A stretch of 64,000 nt of DNA from Streptomyces spiramyceticus (lineage in GTDB: Bacteria > Actinomycetota > Actinomycetes > Streptomycetales > Streptomycetaceae), in the NCBI RefSeq assembly GCF_028807635.1, contig NZ_JARBAX010000001.1, positions 1,563,001 through 1,627,000 on the forward strand, given 5' to 3'. The position numbers and the translations under genes were made by a program. The notes below the pieces were generated by a model. The model made no database searches, was not told the origin of the DNA, and saw nothing but the letters and a program-made list of their open reading frames with translations. This document shows positions 28,103 to 34,246 of this stretch, in pieces (the first letter of the stretch is position 1; every line of letters starts with the position of its first letter).

Positions 28103-29314
28103 GTGACTTCCTTCGACTCCTCCCCCACCCTCAACGCATGGCGCGCGCTGATCGCTCTCGCCGTGGTGTTCGTCCTGCTGGCGACCTCCGGATGGACGGC
28201 GATACGCCACCACAAGGACGAATCCGATCCGCTCGGGGCATCGCTCGCCGCCTGGGCCCGGGGCGGCATCGACGGCCGCGAGCTGCCGGAGGCCGGGTCG
28301 GCGCCCGACCGGCTCGCCCGCTTCTTCGCCTCCCTCACCGCGACGCAACGGGGCCGGCTCGTCGACCGCTACCCGCTGGTCGTCGGCAACATGAACGGCG
28401 CCCCGCTCACTCTGCGCTACCGCGCCAACCACCGTGCCCTCGGCGAGGCGCGCACAGTCGAGCTGCAGCGCATGCACGACAAACGGCTGACCCCGGAAGG
28501 CCGCATGGCGGCGGACCGCAGGATGCACCGGTTCGCGTCGCTCATGAACGGCGACCGGCAGATCCTGGCCTTCGACCCCGCGGGTTCCGGCCAGGTCGCC
28601 GAGGTCTTCGGCGACCTCGGGCGCGCGCAGCGGGTCTCGGTCGTCGTCCCCGGCGTGGACACCAATGTGGTGAATTTCGAGCGGACACGCCGCAAGTACA
28701 CCGCCCCCGTCGGCATGGCGAAATCGCTGTACGCCGCCGAGCGTGCGGCAGCGCCCCGTACCCGTATCGCCGTCATCGCCTGGGCCGACTACACCTCGCC
28801 CTCCGGTGTCGGCATGGACGCGGCCATCGGCAAGCTCGCCAGGGACGGCTCCAAGCGGCTCACCTCGCTCGTGCGGGCGCTGCCCGGTGACTCGAAGGTG
28901 TCCCTCTTCTGCCACAGCTACGGCTCCGTGGTCTGCGGCGTCGCCGCCCCCGAACTGCCGTCGCGCGTCTCCGACATCGCGGTCGCCGGCAGTCCCGGAA
29001 TGCGGGTCGACAGCGCCAAGCAGCTGCGCACCGGGGCTCGCGTGTGGGCCACCCGGGACGGCGACGACTGGATCCAGGGTGTGCCGTATCTGGCGGTCGG
29101 CGGGCTCGGTCACGGCGCGGACCCGGTGACACCGGAGTTCGGTGCCCGGGTCTTCTCCGCAGCCCGCGCAGTCGGACACACCGGCTATTTCGAGCCGGGC
29201 ACCGAGAGCCTCAGCAACTTCGCCGGGATAGGCGTCGGCTCGTACGGCACGGTGAGCTGTGCGGGCGGCAGCGGGGCCTGCCGGAGTGGAATTTCCGGCG
29301 GGGAAGCGACCTGA
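28103..29314 (+). CDS. DUF1023 alpha/beta hydrolase, paralog 1
   Basis: 403 aa from a GTG, with one N-terminal helix (LIALAVVFVLLATSGW), so the protein is membrane-anchored or exported. LVVGNMNGAPLTLRYRAN and the nucleophile elbow FCHSYGSVVCG (Ser272) match DUF1023 hydrolases; the Asp may be in the RVWATRDGDDWI region and the His in GHTGYFEPGTESL. It is a paralog of the protein at 33227-34246, with the same block order. Substrate unknown. It lies upstream of the DUF4429 and two-component genes in the same direction. Confidence 0.85.
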   Translation: MTSFDSSPTLNAWRALIALAVVFVLLATSGWTAIRHHKDESDPLGASLAAWARGGIDGRELPEAGSAPDRLARFFASLTATQRGRLVDRYPLVVGNMNGAPLTLRYRANHRALGEARTVELQRMHDKRLTPEGRMAADRRMHRFASLMNGDRQILAFDPAGSGQVAEVFGDLGRAQRVSVVVPGVDTNVVNFERTRRKYTAPVGMAKSLYAAERAAAPRTRIAVIAWADYTSPSGVGMDAAIGKLARDGSKRLTSLVRALPGDSKVSLFCHSYGSVVCGVAAPELPSRVSDIAVAGSPGMRVDSAKQLRTGARVWATRDGDDWIQGVPYLAVGGLGHGADPVTPEFGARVFSAARAVGHTGYFEPGTESLSNFAGIGVGSYGTVSCAGGSGACRSGISGGEAT

Positions 29315-30431: not shown

Positions 30432-31751
30432 ATGACCGAACCTTCCGCTCCCCCGCCCCCCTCCGACGGCCTGATCACCGCCGGACGCCGCAACATGCAC
30501 GCCCTCGCCCACGCCGTGAGCCACCCCTCGCACGCGCCGACCCCCCTGTTCGCCGACGCCCCACGCCGCTGGCAGCGGCTCCTGGCGTACGCCGCGGTGC
30601 TCGCGCTCACAGCCACGCTGCTGCCCGTCACCATTTCGGTCCTCGCCAACGACTACGCCGTGCCGGGCGGTCTCGCCGGGGCCATCGCCGCCGCGCAGGC
30701 GCTTCCGCTGCTGATGATCGGCCACCGGCCGCTCCAGGCGTGGTGGATCATCTTTCCCGCCGATGCCGTCGGGAGTCTTTTCCTGCTCGACGGTCTCGGC
30801 AAGGACGACATCTGGCCGTGGAGCCCGCCCGTCATCGTCGGCTACCTCTTCCTGATGCTCGCGCTGGCGCTGCGCGAGACGCGCCGGACGCTGATCGGGG
30901 TCTGGCTCGTCACCTGCCTCGTCGGCCTCCTCCTCGGCACGCTCTTCCCCGCGGAGACCGACGGCACGGACGTGCTGATGATCGTGCTGAGCGCGGTGGT
31001 CCTGGTGATCGGCGGCGCGCTGCGCGAGCGCGGCGACGTACAGCGGCGGCTGGTCGAGCAGGAGACCATCAGCGAGGCGGAGCGCTCCCGGCGCACACTG
31101 CTTGAGGAACGGACACGCATCGCACGCGAGTTGCACGATGTCGTCGCCCATCACATGTCCGTCATCACCGTCCAGGCCGACTCCGCGCCGTACCGGGTCG
31201 GGGGTCTCTCGCCCGAAGTCCAGGACGAGTTCGCCTCGATCGCGACCAGCGCGCGGGAGTCGCTGACCGAGATGCGGCGGCTCCTCGCGGTGCTGCGCAG
31301 CGAGGACGCCACCGGCGAACTGGCCCCGCAGCCGGGCCTCGACCGGCTCCAGCAGCTCGTCGAAGCGACGGTACGGGCCGGGGTGCCGGCCGAACTGTCC
31401 CTCGCCGCGGGCCTCTCCGACCCGGGTCAACTGCCGCAGGCCGTCGACCTGTCGGCGTACCGCATCGTGCAGGAAGCCCTGGCCAACGTGGTGCGGCACG
31501 CGCCGGGGGCCACTACGCGGGTGTCGGTCTCCTCGGACGGCACCGACCTGATCGTCCTCGTCGTCAACGGGCCCGCCGCGGGCCGCACAGCGCCGGTGGA
31601 GGCGAGCGGGGCGGGCGGTCACGGGCTGGTCGGGATGCGTGAGCGCGTACGGTTGACCGGCGGCAAGCTGGACACCGGTCCGCTGCCGGACGGCGGCTTC
31701 CGGGTCGCCGCCCGGCTTCCCATCGGCGCGAAGGAGTCCTCCTCCCCATGA
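30432..31751 (+). CDS. NarL-class sensor histidine kinase
   Basis: 439 aa from ATG 30432. About five N-terminal helices (50-200) form a membrane sensor without a large external loop. The HisKA_3 dimerisation box is EERTRIARELHDVVAHHMS with the phospho-acceptor His235, followed by a HATPase domain (YRIVQEALANVVRHAP, and GHGLVGMRERVRLTGG). The stop overlaps the response regulator start by 4 bp (ATGA). The signal is unknown; autoregulation through the upstream inverted repeat is suggested by position. Confidence 0.93.
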   Translation: MTEPSAPPPPSDGLITAGRRNMHALAHAVSHPSHAPTPLFADAPRRWQRLLAYAAVLALTATLLPVTISVLANDYAVPGGLAGAIAAAQALPLLMIGHRPLQAWWIIFPADAVGSLFLLDGLGKDDIWPWSPPVIVGYLFLMLALALRETRRTLIGVWLVTCLVGLLLGTLFPAETDGTDVLMIVLSAVVLVIGGALRERGDVQRRLVEQETISEAERSRRTLLEERTRIARELHDVVAHHMSVITVQADSAPYRVGGLSPEVQDEFASIATSARESLTEMRRLLAVLRSEDATGELAPQPGLDRLQQLVEATVRAGVPAELSLAAGLSDPGQLPQAVDLSAYRIVQEALANVVRHAPGATTRVSVSSDGTDLIVLVVNGPAAGRTAPVEASGAGGHGLVGMRERVRLTGGKLDTGPLPDGGFRVAARLPIGAKESSSP

Positions 31752-32422
31752 CCATCCGCGTGATCATCGTCGACGACCAGGCCATGGTGCGGGCGGGGTT
31801 CGCCGCGCTGCTCTCGGCGCAGAGCGACATCGACGTGGTGGGCGAGGCGCCGGACGGGCGGCAGGGGGTCGACGTCAGCCGGTCCACGCATCCCGACGTG
31901 GTCCTCATGGACGTCCGGATGCCTGAGATGGACGGGCTGGCCGCGGCGCGCGAGCTGCTGGATCCGCCGGTGGGCGTCGTGCACCGGCCGAAGGTGCTGA
32001 TGCTCACCACCTTCGACGTGGACGATTACGTGTACGAGGCGCTGCGCGCCGGGGCGTCCGGCTTCCTATTGAAGGACGCGCCGCCCGCGGACCTGATCTC
32101 GGCGGTACGGGTGGTGGCGGCCGGGGAAGCGCTGCTGGCGCCGTCGGTGACGCGGCGTCTGATCGCCGACTTCGCCCGCCGGCGACCGGCTCCGCGCCGG
32201 GACCCCTCGCTGCGGCTCAACGGGCTTACGCCGCGCGAGACGGAGGTCCTGGAGCTGATTGCCCGGGGCCTGTCGAACCAGGAGATCGCGGGGCGGTTGG
32301 TGCTGGCAGAGCAGACGGTAAAGACGCACATCGGGCGCGTCCTGGCGAAACTCGACCTGCGGGACCGGGCGCAGGCGGTGGTCTTCGCGTACGAGTCGGG
32401 GTTGGTGTCGCCGGGGTCGTAG
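31748..32422 (+). CDS. NarL/LuxR-family response regulator
   Basis: 224 aa. Receiver domain with IIVDDQAMVRAGF, phospho-accepting Asp55 in VVLMDVRMPEMDG, and Lys in GFLLKDAPP; C-terminal LuxR helix-turn-helix LTPRETEVLELIARGLSNQEIAGRLVLAEQTVKTHIGRVL. It is translationally coupled to the kinase. By family it binds as a dimer to inverted repeats, such as that at 30352-30394. The insertion LDPPVGVVHRPK between the beta4 and alpha4 elements is common in actinobacterial members. Confidence 0.93.
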   Translation: MTIRVIIVDDQAMVRAGFAALLSAQSDIDVVGEAPDGRQGVDVSRSTHPDVVLMDVRMPEMDGLAAARELLDPPVGVVHRPKVLMLTTFDVDDYVYEALRAGASGFLLKDAPPADLISAVRVVAAGEALLAPSVTRRLIADFARRRPAPRRDPSLRLNGLTPRETEVLELIARGLSNQEIAGRLVLAEQTVKTHIGRVLAKLDLRDRAQAVVFAYESGLVSPGS

Positions 32423-32516
32423 CGGGATTCGCGCCGGTGCGCTGCCGGGGGCGCGCTGCCGGGGGCGGGACGCTGCGGGGCCTGTGGTGGTGCCGGGGGC
32501 CGGGGCCTACGGGAGC

Positions 32517-32608
32517 GGCATTCGGGACTGCATGATTTAGCTGCGATCCCGGGTCACCGAAAGCCCTCCCGGCGTCCCGCGCACAAATCACGTTTTACGT
32601 CCCGAACA
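32517..32608 (+). repeat. Left inverted module (92 bp)
   Basis: Two conserved blocks, A at 32517-32545 (starts GGCATTCGGGACTGC) and B at 32579-32608 (starts GCGCACAAATCACG), enclose a 33-bp core at 32546-32578. The whole module recurs in opposite orientation at 32887-32978 with A and B almost unchanged but an unrelated core of identical length. No coding frame is plausible. Confidence 0.9.
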
Positions 32609-32730
32609 CCCCTCCCTACGGCCCCGTCCCCCTCCCGTACGTCGCCAACACCGACCGGCGCCGGTCGACGGCGCCGGTCGACGGCAAGGCTGAACAGGGG
32701 TGGCACCCCCGGCGAGCGGGGCCGGATGGA

Positions 32731-32898
32731 CCACCGGCGCGAGGGGGCGGGACGCGCAGGGGACGCTGTTCGGGACGTGCTGTGCCTGCCCGGGGGACAA
32801 CCCCCGGACCCCCGGCCGAAACCCCGCCAGGCAACCGGCGTCGGCACCACCCACCGGCGCGAGGGGGCGGGACGCGCAGGGGGCGCTGTTCGGGACGT
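32731..32898 (+). repeat. 48-bp direct repeats with 120-bp period
   Basis: The block starting CCACCGGCGCGAGGGGGCGG occurs at 32731-32778 and again at 32851-32898 with one substitution. The spacing is exactly 120 bp. The end of each block (TGTTCGGGACGT) is the beginning of conserved block B of the right module, so the right module and the direct repeats interlock. Confidence 0.9.
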
Positions 32899-32978
32899 AA
32901 AGCGTGATTTGTGCGCCAGTTACTGGCCTCGCACACGCAGCCCCCGCACCGCAGCTAAATCATGCAGTCCCGAATGGC
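32887..32978 (-). repeat. Right inverted module (92 bp)
   Basis: Reverse-complement partner of 32517-32608: block B at 32887-32916 (29 of 30 positions), a 33-bp core at 32917-32949 and block A at 32950-32978 (28 of 29 positions). Its core has its own small palindrome (GCCAGTAACTGGC) and does not resemble the left core. Confidence 0.9.
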
Positions 32979-33008
32979 GCCCCCGGAGCGGCCCGACCCC
33001 GCACGGGG

Positions 33009-33099
33009 CCCACCCGGCGCAAGCCAAGCCCCGCACACCGCCCACCGGCGCCAGCCAACCCCGCAAGGACCCACCCGGCGCAAGCGAAACCCCGCGCGG
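33009..33099. repeat. Three 29-32 bp tandem repeats
   Basis: Units at 33009, 33041 and 33070 share CCCACCCGGCGCAAGC and then AACCCCGC-type endings. The CCACCGGCGC part also occurs in the 48-bp direct repeats to the left. It is noncoding DNA upstream of the second DUF1023 gene. Confidence 0.8.
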
Positions 33100-33226
33100 G
33101 ATCAACTACCCCCACCCCTACCCAAGTAGCACCCCCGACTTGGCTCCCCGGTGTGACGCCCCCGCCCGCGTCGTCTTCCTACCTTCCTCTCCGCCAGCCA
33201 CTGGACGAGAAAAGGGAGACGGAATC

Positions 33227-34246
33227 ATGCGCCGCTACAAGAGGACCCTGGTTGCCGTCGCGCTCGCGACCACCGTCGTTGCGGGCACGGCGGGCTGGGC
33301 CTCCGGGAATGCGCAGGAGGCCGTCACCGGCCCACCCCCCGGCAGCTCCGCCTGGCGCGCAGAAGGGCTGCCCGACCCCGCAGCCAGCACGCCGGAACAA
33401 GTCGCCCACTTCTTCGCCGGGTTGAGCCAGAACCGTCGGCAGGACCTCGCCCGCCGCCACCCGCTCGTCGTCGGCAACCTCGACGGCGCCCCCGTGGAGC
33501 TCCGGTACGAGGCCAACTCCCGCGCCGCGCAGGCCGAGGGCTTCGACCGTCTCGCGAAGCCGGGCCGCCAGATCCTCGCGTTCGACCCGCGCGTCCGTGG
33601 CCAAGTCGCCGAGGTGTACGGCGATTTGGGCGAGGCGGAGCACGTGGCTGTTGTTGTCCCCGGCTCCGACATAGATGCCAGGACCTTCGACCGTACGAAC
33701 GACGTGTACGGCACCCCGGCCGGCATGGCGAAGTCCCTCTACGACTCGACGAAGAGCCACCGCACCGCCGTGATCGCCTGGGCCGGCTACACCACCCCCG
33801 TCGGCGTAGGCATCGACGCCGCCACCGGCGACCTCGCCGAGGCGGGCGCCGAACGCCTGGCACGGCTGACGGACGGCCTCGATGCCACCGGCGCCCCGGA
33901 CCCTGCCGTGTTCTGCCACAGCTACGGCTCGGTGGTCTGCGGCCTCGCCGCGCCCCGCCTGGACGCCGCCGATGTCGTCGCGCTGGGTTCCCCCGGGATG
34001 CGGGTCGCCGACGTCGACGACATGCACACCGACGCGCGGGTGTGGGCGGCGAAGGACCCCTCCGACTGGATCTCCAAGGTCCCGAACGTCGAGTTCGCGG
34101 GCCTGGGGCACGGCACCGACCCCACCGAACCCGCCTTCGGTGCCCGCCGCGTACCGGCCGACAACGCCGAAGGCCACACCGGCTACTTCGTCCCCGGCAC
34201 CGAATCCCTGCGTACCTTCGCCGCCATCACCGTGGGAGAGCTGTGA
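33227..34246 (+). CDS. DUF1023 alpha/beta hydrolase, paralog 2, exported
   Basis: 339 aa, ATG with AAGGGAG upstream. A signal sequence or anchor (RTLVAVALATTVVAGTAGWASG) precedes LVVGNLDGAPVELRYEAN, VVVPGSDID, the nucleophile FCHSYGSVVCG (Ser232) and GHTGYFVPGTESL. Same block order as paralog 1, but a shorter middle. Its last codon shares one base with the start of the acyltransferase (TGATG), so the two are coupled. This suggests an envelope-modifying pair; the substrate is not known. Confidence 0.85.
   Translation: MRRYKRTLVAVALATTVVAGTAGWASGNAQEAVTGPPPGSSAWRAEGLPDPAASTPEQVAHFFAGLSQNRRQDLARRHPLVVGNLDGAPVELRYEANSRAAQAEGFDRLAKPGRQILAFDPRVRGQVAEVYGDLGEAEHVAVVVPGSDIDARTFDRTNDVYGTPAGMAKSLYDSTKSHRTAVIAWAGYTTPVGVGIDAATGDLAEAGAERLARLTDGLDATGAPDPAVFCHSYGSVVCGLAAPRLDAADVVALGSPGMRVADVDDMHTDARVWAAKDPSDWISKVPNVEFAGLGHGTDPTEPAFGARRVPADNAEGHTGYFVPGTESLRTFAAITVGEL

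Follow-up and report, generated by a model that had tools for sequence, protein, structure and literature searches.

ERIC-type and other palindromic MITE-like repeats are intergenic, imperfect palindromes of 100-200 bp. REP, BIME and REPIN sequences (GTAG and CGTC families) are dispersed, extragenic, imperfect palindromes as well, with inverted pairs and irregularities in the middle of the stem. In the parts of the published accounts available to us, REPs are 20-40 bp long and are preferentially arranged as heterodimers in most families, a preference left unexplained (PMC3733652), and they usually exceed 100 copies per genome (PMC2817692). Other hairpins have been described at the telomeres of Streptomyces, where they are bound by Tap as single-stranded DNA (ssDNA) and some are closed by sheared G:A pairs (PMC4513846, available part), and near gene ends in GC-rich bacteria, where GC-rich hairpins act as I-shaped (U-poor) terminators (PMC8269248, available part).

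The window analysed here, a stretch of 64,000 nucleotides from Streptomyces spiramyceticus, contains two inverted modules which represent a single copy, made up of an L and an R hairpin, of a dispersed, structured non-coding repeat family in Streptomycetaceae. With the general description of ERIC-type repeats, the modules share length, intergenic location and imperfect palindromy, but differ in showing strand-specific covariation and inverted heterodimers. With REP/BIME/REPIN they have in common that they are dispersed extragenic palindromes, imperfect and hairpin-forming, with mid-stem irregularities and oppositely oriented neighbours. However, the modules measure 70-130 bp or more, against the 20-40 bp given for REPs in the available part of PMC3733652, and their copy number (at most 24 per genome by a strict motif; at least 16 in this genome by a structure model) falls short of the >100 stated in that of PMC2817692. 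They also differ from REPs in their AT-rich conserved inner motif and in lacking a universal counterpart of the GTAG/CGTC end tag. G[GT]GAG, considered as a universal foot tag, marks only a subset, being present in 21 of 77 non-redundant modules, compared with 5 of 77 for the opposite foot and 2 of 72 for positions further out.

Two unlike hairpins in one intergenic region

A previous sequence-only reading had described two inverted 92-bp modules at positions 32517-32608 and 32887-32978, with outer blocks matching at 28 of 29 positions and inner blocks at 29 of 30, and this description was reproduced exactly. The cores between the blocks are indeed of equal length (33 bp), but the claim that they lack similarity was too strong: 14 of 33 positions match, a faint residual likeness (shuffled mean 8.6; 14 matches were reached in 2.1% of 10,000 shuffles). 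Moreover, the inverted match extends further than had been reported, with 77% identity over 128 bp (E 9.6e-19), and a repeat search returned arms of 59-60 nt. What had been missed is that each module folds into a single hairpin, in which the outer block pairs with the inner one and the core forms the loop. RNA and DNA folds place the L hairpin at 32495-32640, with the minus strand as the folding strand, and the R hairpin at 32858-33001, with the plus strand as the folding strand. The variable loop is enclosed by a conserved motif pair, CATGATTTA ... AAATCACG, which lies at 32531-32592 on the plus strand in L (core 32546-32578) and at 32903-32964 on the minus strand in R.

The L hairpin, spacer and R hairpin together form a repeated unit (32457-33067) that is 96.6% identical over 612 bp to a copy at C1:3921361-3921835 (locus L009), the likeness ending beyond the 612 bp. 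The modules are not due to chance, because the same genome holds further full-length copies of the unit with 98% and 94% identity, in addition to partial ones; since further copies break off at different points, the ends of the unit are fuzzy. The spacer (32638-32850), which is shorter or different in other copies, holds a palindrome with 12-bp arms (32652-32680) and a plus-strand half-module (32731-32778) that has neither loop nor outer arm and matches the R inner arm (32851-32898) at 47 of 48 bases. A GC-rich stretch of the spacer, at 32776-32821, matches places in many other Streptomyces genomes at 83-100% and is a separate, commoner intergenic repeat outside the hairpin family. Directly outside the R module, at 33006-33095, lie near-tandem repeats of 29 bp (CCCACCCGGCGCAAGCC...).

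The region is flanked by two plus-strand genes, one for a LuxR-type response regulator (31748-32422; PF00072, PF00196) and one for an alpha/beta hydrolase (33227-34246; PF06259 Abhydrolase_8, E 1.8e-43), previously labelled DUF1023. The latter gene and that at 28103-29314 appear by eye to be paralogues flanking two-component system genes on both sides; the resemblance consists of similar motifs in the translations, with the Pfam match (Abhydrolase_8) coming from 33227-34246 only.

Copies, loop types and distribution

With structure model R2, we obtained 22 matches in this genome, which after removal of 6 opposite-strand shadows correspond to at least 16 modules, arranged as six inverted pairs and four singles. 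Alignment divides them into two types, L (8 modules) and R (8 modules), and all six pairs consist of one L and one R. Among the matches listed, 16 modules are on C1 (5.15 Mb) and none on C2 (~1.93 Mb); the modules may avoid the chromosome arms.

To a set of 177 modules, typed by hand after removal of opposite-strand shadows and without the partial matches L178:7891 and L240:1, belong 28 pairs of close neighbours (≤700 nt), with starts 161-400 nt apart. All 28 are oppositely oriented, 27 as '+-' and one as '-+', with none on the same strand; L126 and L202 are the same locus, leaving 26 distinct '+-' pairs. The partners of the 22 pairs found by motif expressions, in seven genomes, are 0.67-0.81 identical and of unlike type in 21 cases at a type threshold of 80% identity, although these counts are not independent, because pairs within one genome are partly mutual copies. 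An autonomous element between the modules of genome G060 that lie 3.3-3.7 kb apart was considered and rejected, as the open reading frames there resemble, by eye, ordinary chromosomal genes.

The loops themselves do not behave as the exchangeable cores of fixed length that the sequence-only reading had proposed. Apart from small changes, the 8 L copies of this genome share one core and the 8 R copies another. L cores of this genome (G000) and of two relatives (G471 and G085) are 0.71-0.87 alike, whereas L and R within a pair are only 0.53-0.58 alike, so that L loops are clearly inherited by type across the three species. For R, likeness is 0.80 between the cores of G471 and G085, but the core of G000 scores 0.62-0.64 against these, barely above its 0.53-0.61 against L cores, which weakly suggests inheritance by type for the R loop of this genome. 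Core length also varies, with 41-53 nt between the motifs in 168 distinct modules and a core that is almost missing in genome G064. The same reading fared better where it invoked a mini-element with conserved stems, an idea that proved largely right given the fold, the covariation, the dispersed copies and the present/absent and single/pair states among relatives described below; its interpretation as a whole was partly supported.

The strict motif was found in 36 of 392 Streptomyces genomes, with no match to the reversed control. An order-wide draw of 293 genomes, overlapping with the first, contained the motif in 28 and in none of the 20 outside the genus. Structure model R1 detected modules in 27 of 150 genomes (at most 22 candidates scored in each), and model R2 found variants in G527, with an inverted pair, and in G570, two of the five genomes searched from other genera of the family. 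Among 13 genomes from other families it gave a single borderline match, which lacks the motif pair. Some genomes appear under both handle and name. Genome titles among the matches listed include S. lavendulae, S. avidinii, S. exfoliatus, S. narbonensis and S. scopuliridis. The two non-Streptomyces titles (L169 and L238) among the 80 listed of 103 rows had no model R1 match and were dropped, as were L256, L258 and L266, considered AT-rich chance matches.

Phages yielded no match to the repeat, and plasmids a single record (85% over 10% of the query). In viral contigs, 101 stretches contain the motif; these are likely chance matches because the motif is so AT-rich, and they entered no count. Searches of Rfam 15 with window positions 32300-33250 (sub-threshold matches only) and with 14 loci gave no match at the gathering score, and we found no title or abstract in the open-access literature that describes such Streptomyces repeats. 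Modules are also present at contig ends of draft assemblies (G085:C63, G042:C53 and C59, G119:C92) and may break assemblies.

Hairpin structure and the folding strand

Reading inwards, the hairpin begins with an outer stem that is long and GC-rich, followed by an internal loop that is asymmetric, with ~5 bases (for example, GTAAA) on the 5' side of the folding strand and ~1 on the other. Next come an AT-rich conserved helix 2 (GCGTGATTTG / TAAATCATGC), helix 3, which is frequently GGCGC / GCGCC, and the variable loop. The outermost arms vary, and the inner motif is conserved. Modules are 115-130 bp or longer, except in G064, where a short form of ~70 bp has the core GTAAAGCGAAGCA and the centre GCGAAGC on the folding strand. 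The GCGAAGC hairpin is unusually stable in DNA. This centre, together with the ssDNA hairpin proposed below, is what the modules share with the Tap-bound telomere hairpins, from which they differ in lying at internal chromosomal sites, in having another sequence and in occurring in just part of the genus. The short core on the folding strand also resembles a Citrobacter (enterobacterial) REP core in the available part of PMC2817692. The short hairpins of G064 (L093-L096) form inverted pairs flanked by an additional outer inverted repeat.

The structure is supported by covariation, which includes helix 3. Across 51 modules and 51 base pairs, 82.0% of the cells are paired, compared with 71.8% in shuffles and 40-47% with slid partners, and both sides have changed in 283 cells compared with 120 in shuffles, a number reached by none of 500. 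Note that the invariant helix-2 pairs were partly imposed by the search motif, and that the 51 modules were aligned from 53 non-redundant ones by omitting L072:1637, with an unpaired outer stem, and L250, beside a run of N, which favours the structure. A smaller alignment of 16 modules (from 18 non-redundant ones, L018 being cut short and L021 omitted) shows double changes in 10 of 23 pairs.

The fold of each module is biased to one strand. For L, the RNA fold of the minus strand has an energy of -93.0 kcal/mol (z -6.7) versus -75.4 (z -5.8) for the plus strand, both strong against shuffles, and the DNA folds -48.6 versus -36.2. For R, the DNA fold (32858-33001) likewise favours one strand, here the plus strand (-49.7, z -5.7, versus -41.8, z -2.4), and the RNA fold (32851-32990) gives -71.9 (z -2.4) for plus and -68.0 (z -1.4) for minus, both weak against shuffles. 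Since L folds on the minus strand and R on the plus strand, the two hairpins in the window point away from each other. Of 163 distinct modules in the family, 158 have an RNA fold that is more stable on the folding strand, as do 50 of 53 non-redundant ones, both sets still including the later dropped chance matches L256, L258 and L266.

The mismatches tell the same strands apart. In outer stems read with CATGATTTA first and with arms aligned without energy rules, A.C mismatches occupy 43 distinct sites and G.T mismatches 4, and A.C exceeds G.T in 17 of 19 groups, the other two having neither; G089 is absent from this count because its motif is one base off the pattern used. Given the A.C excess on the CATGATTTA-first strand, the wobble-bearing strand is the opposite one. 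Helix 3 shows the bias less strongly (19 A.C versus 9 G.T cells). RNA and DNA are inseparable by energy, and the wobble and energy data suit an RNA as well as an ssDNA hairpin.

Placement, turnover and possible origin

To describe the genomic placement, we compared 123 single modules with 507 gaps of 100-800 nt at the same loci, module-bearing gaps included, using gene calls from a custom GC-frame script. Single modules occupy convergent gaps in 56 cases (background 96 of 507), divergent gaps in 10 (background 163 of 507) and tandem gaps in 57 (background 248 of 507), with one module inside a called gene. In tandem gaps the two orientations are not significantly different (33 versus 24, p 0.29), whereas for modules in convergent gaps it is the CATGATTTA side that lies closer to its adjacent stop codon in 43 of 56, an orientation that may be explained by extra repeated sequence on the other side. 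No consistent bias with respect to replication was apparent by eye, and no common promoter was seen at the closest loci read, because the sequence immediately outside the stem is unconserved. In G173 and G074 (L129-L145), another widespread intergenic repeat, with CCGGCGTTTGAGG, lies downstream of modules.

Comparison of the same sites across related genomes revealed gain and loss. In G000, 685-696 bp separate the matched flanks of the window site; the corresponding distances are 53 bp in G471, 127 bp in G085, 65 bp in G119 and 120 bp in G114. By eye, one half of an R module persists in G085 and an outer-arm stub in G119; these remnants in two of the four relatives imply that the site was formerly occupied and has decayed in some of them, and rule out a clean empty site at this locus. 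A second site spans 769 bp in G000, which has a pair there, and 216 bp in G085, which has a single module; G471 has no module in its 103 bp, G114 retains outer arms only in 77 bp, and a contig end interrupts the site in G119. A third carries a pair in G000 and one R-type module in G471. The G074 module sits between genes that resemble, by eye, those of an ABC-transporter operon, a gap of ~155 bp in G004 and G001. Neither target-site duplications nor unit ends could be fixed from the fuzzy ends and remnant-bearing sites.

We give an even chance to the possibility that the modules are non-autonomous REP/BIME-like repeats, the folding strand of which acts as ssDNA. Hairpins of this kind are suggested by the one-strand fold, the inverted pairs, the limited orientation relative to genes and the fit with gain and loss; dispersed near-identical copies, covariation, the A.C:G.T asymmetry, the single pair arrangement and the intergenic placing point the same way. 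The folding strand would be recognised as ssDNA by a candidate trans-acting enzyme, possibly since lost, and hairpins, single or paired, would be copied as non-autonomous elements into intergenic gaps. The persistence of unlike types in pairs would reflect the instability of the long palindrome that identical inverted modules of 130 bp would create. The main gap in this reading is the missing enzyme. A Y1 transposase (Y1_Tnp, PF01797) was absent from 10 of 12 carrier genomes in a search whose control was positive in 5 of 14 known genomes; with PF01797 in only 2 of 12 carriers, a RAYT partner is unsupported, and in the Y2_Tnp search the control matched nowhere. The Streptomyces repeat is thus not a REP, being too long, devoid of a universal tag and without a Y1 transposase in 10 of 12 genomes. 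Also counting against the reading are the orientation bias in convergent gaps, which an insertion model alone does not predict, the energy and wobble data that suit RNA equally well, the remnants at the window site in place of a clean empty site, the weak RNA stability of the window R module, the weaker bias in helix 3 and the dependence among pair counts.

The chief rival is an RNA function, which we consider rather unlikely: the folding strand would be transcribed, the hairpin would act in RNA, and copies would have spread by recombination. Proposed roles include protection of 3' ends, service as an I-shaped terminator or as a barrier to antisense transcription between convergent genes, an RNase III site and a small RNA. 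Covariation with wobble pairs, the preference for convergent gaps and the constant stop-codon-proximal side fit such a family, and S. clavuligerus has U-poor hairpin 3' ends according to the available part of PMC8269248. The modules share with the I-shaped terminators of the same partial account a GC-rich hairpin near gene ends, but differ in having a conserved inner motif; unlike inverted pairs are unexpected for a terminator, and the missing Rfam match, the non-significant tandem-gap orientation and the unconserved upstream sequence argue further against an RNA family, as may the lack of a U-tract by eye in the flanks read.

It is improbable that the repeat is a MITE mobilised through recognition of its inverted arms by an ordinary DDE transposase. 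Short, dispersed, non-coding units with inverted arms would suit it, but the conserved part is the inner motif while the outermost arms vary, strand-specific mismatches are unnecessary for double-stranded ends, and the unit ends are not fixed. We attach an equally small probability to a history without transposition, in which old hairpins were spread and homogenised by homologous recombination and gene conversion between intergenic repeats; this accounts for fuzzy unit ends, low-complexity repeats in the flanks and changes between single and pair at the same site, and leaves the strand bias, the covariation and the single pair arrangement unexplained. Far less credible still is a unit with an exchangeable core, altered by site-specific recombination, for which we found no support, or by cassette swapping. 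The pair in the window, with unlike cores in a constant frame, is what such a unit would produce, but cores follow type among the copies of this genome and also across species, where the case is clear for L, and they vary in length.

Within the REP/BIME-like reading, we tentatively propose, as a doubtful extension, a new class of ssDNA hairpin repeats of Streptomycetaceae that would be mobilised or maintained by a non-Y1 (non-RAYT) enzyme and in which selection for palindrome avoidance would keep the heterodimers obligate. Because two loop types pair in several genomes, the heterodimer preference is testable here. Either REP/BIME-like repeats or a novel family of covarying RNAs would be extended to the main antibiotic-producing genus.
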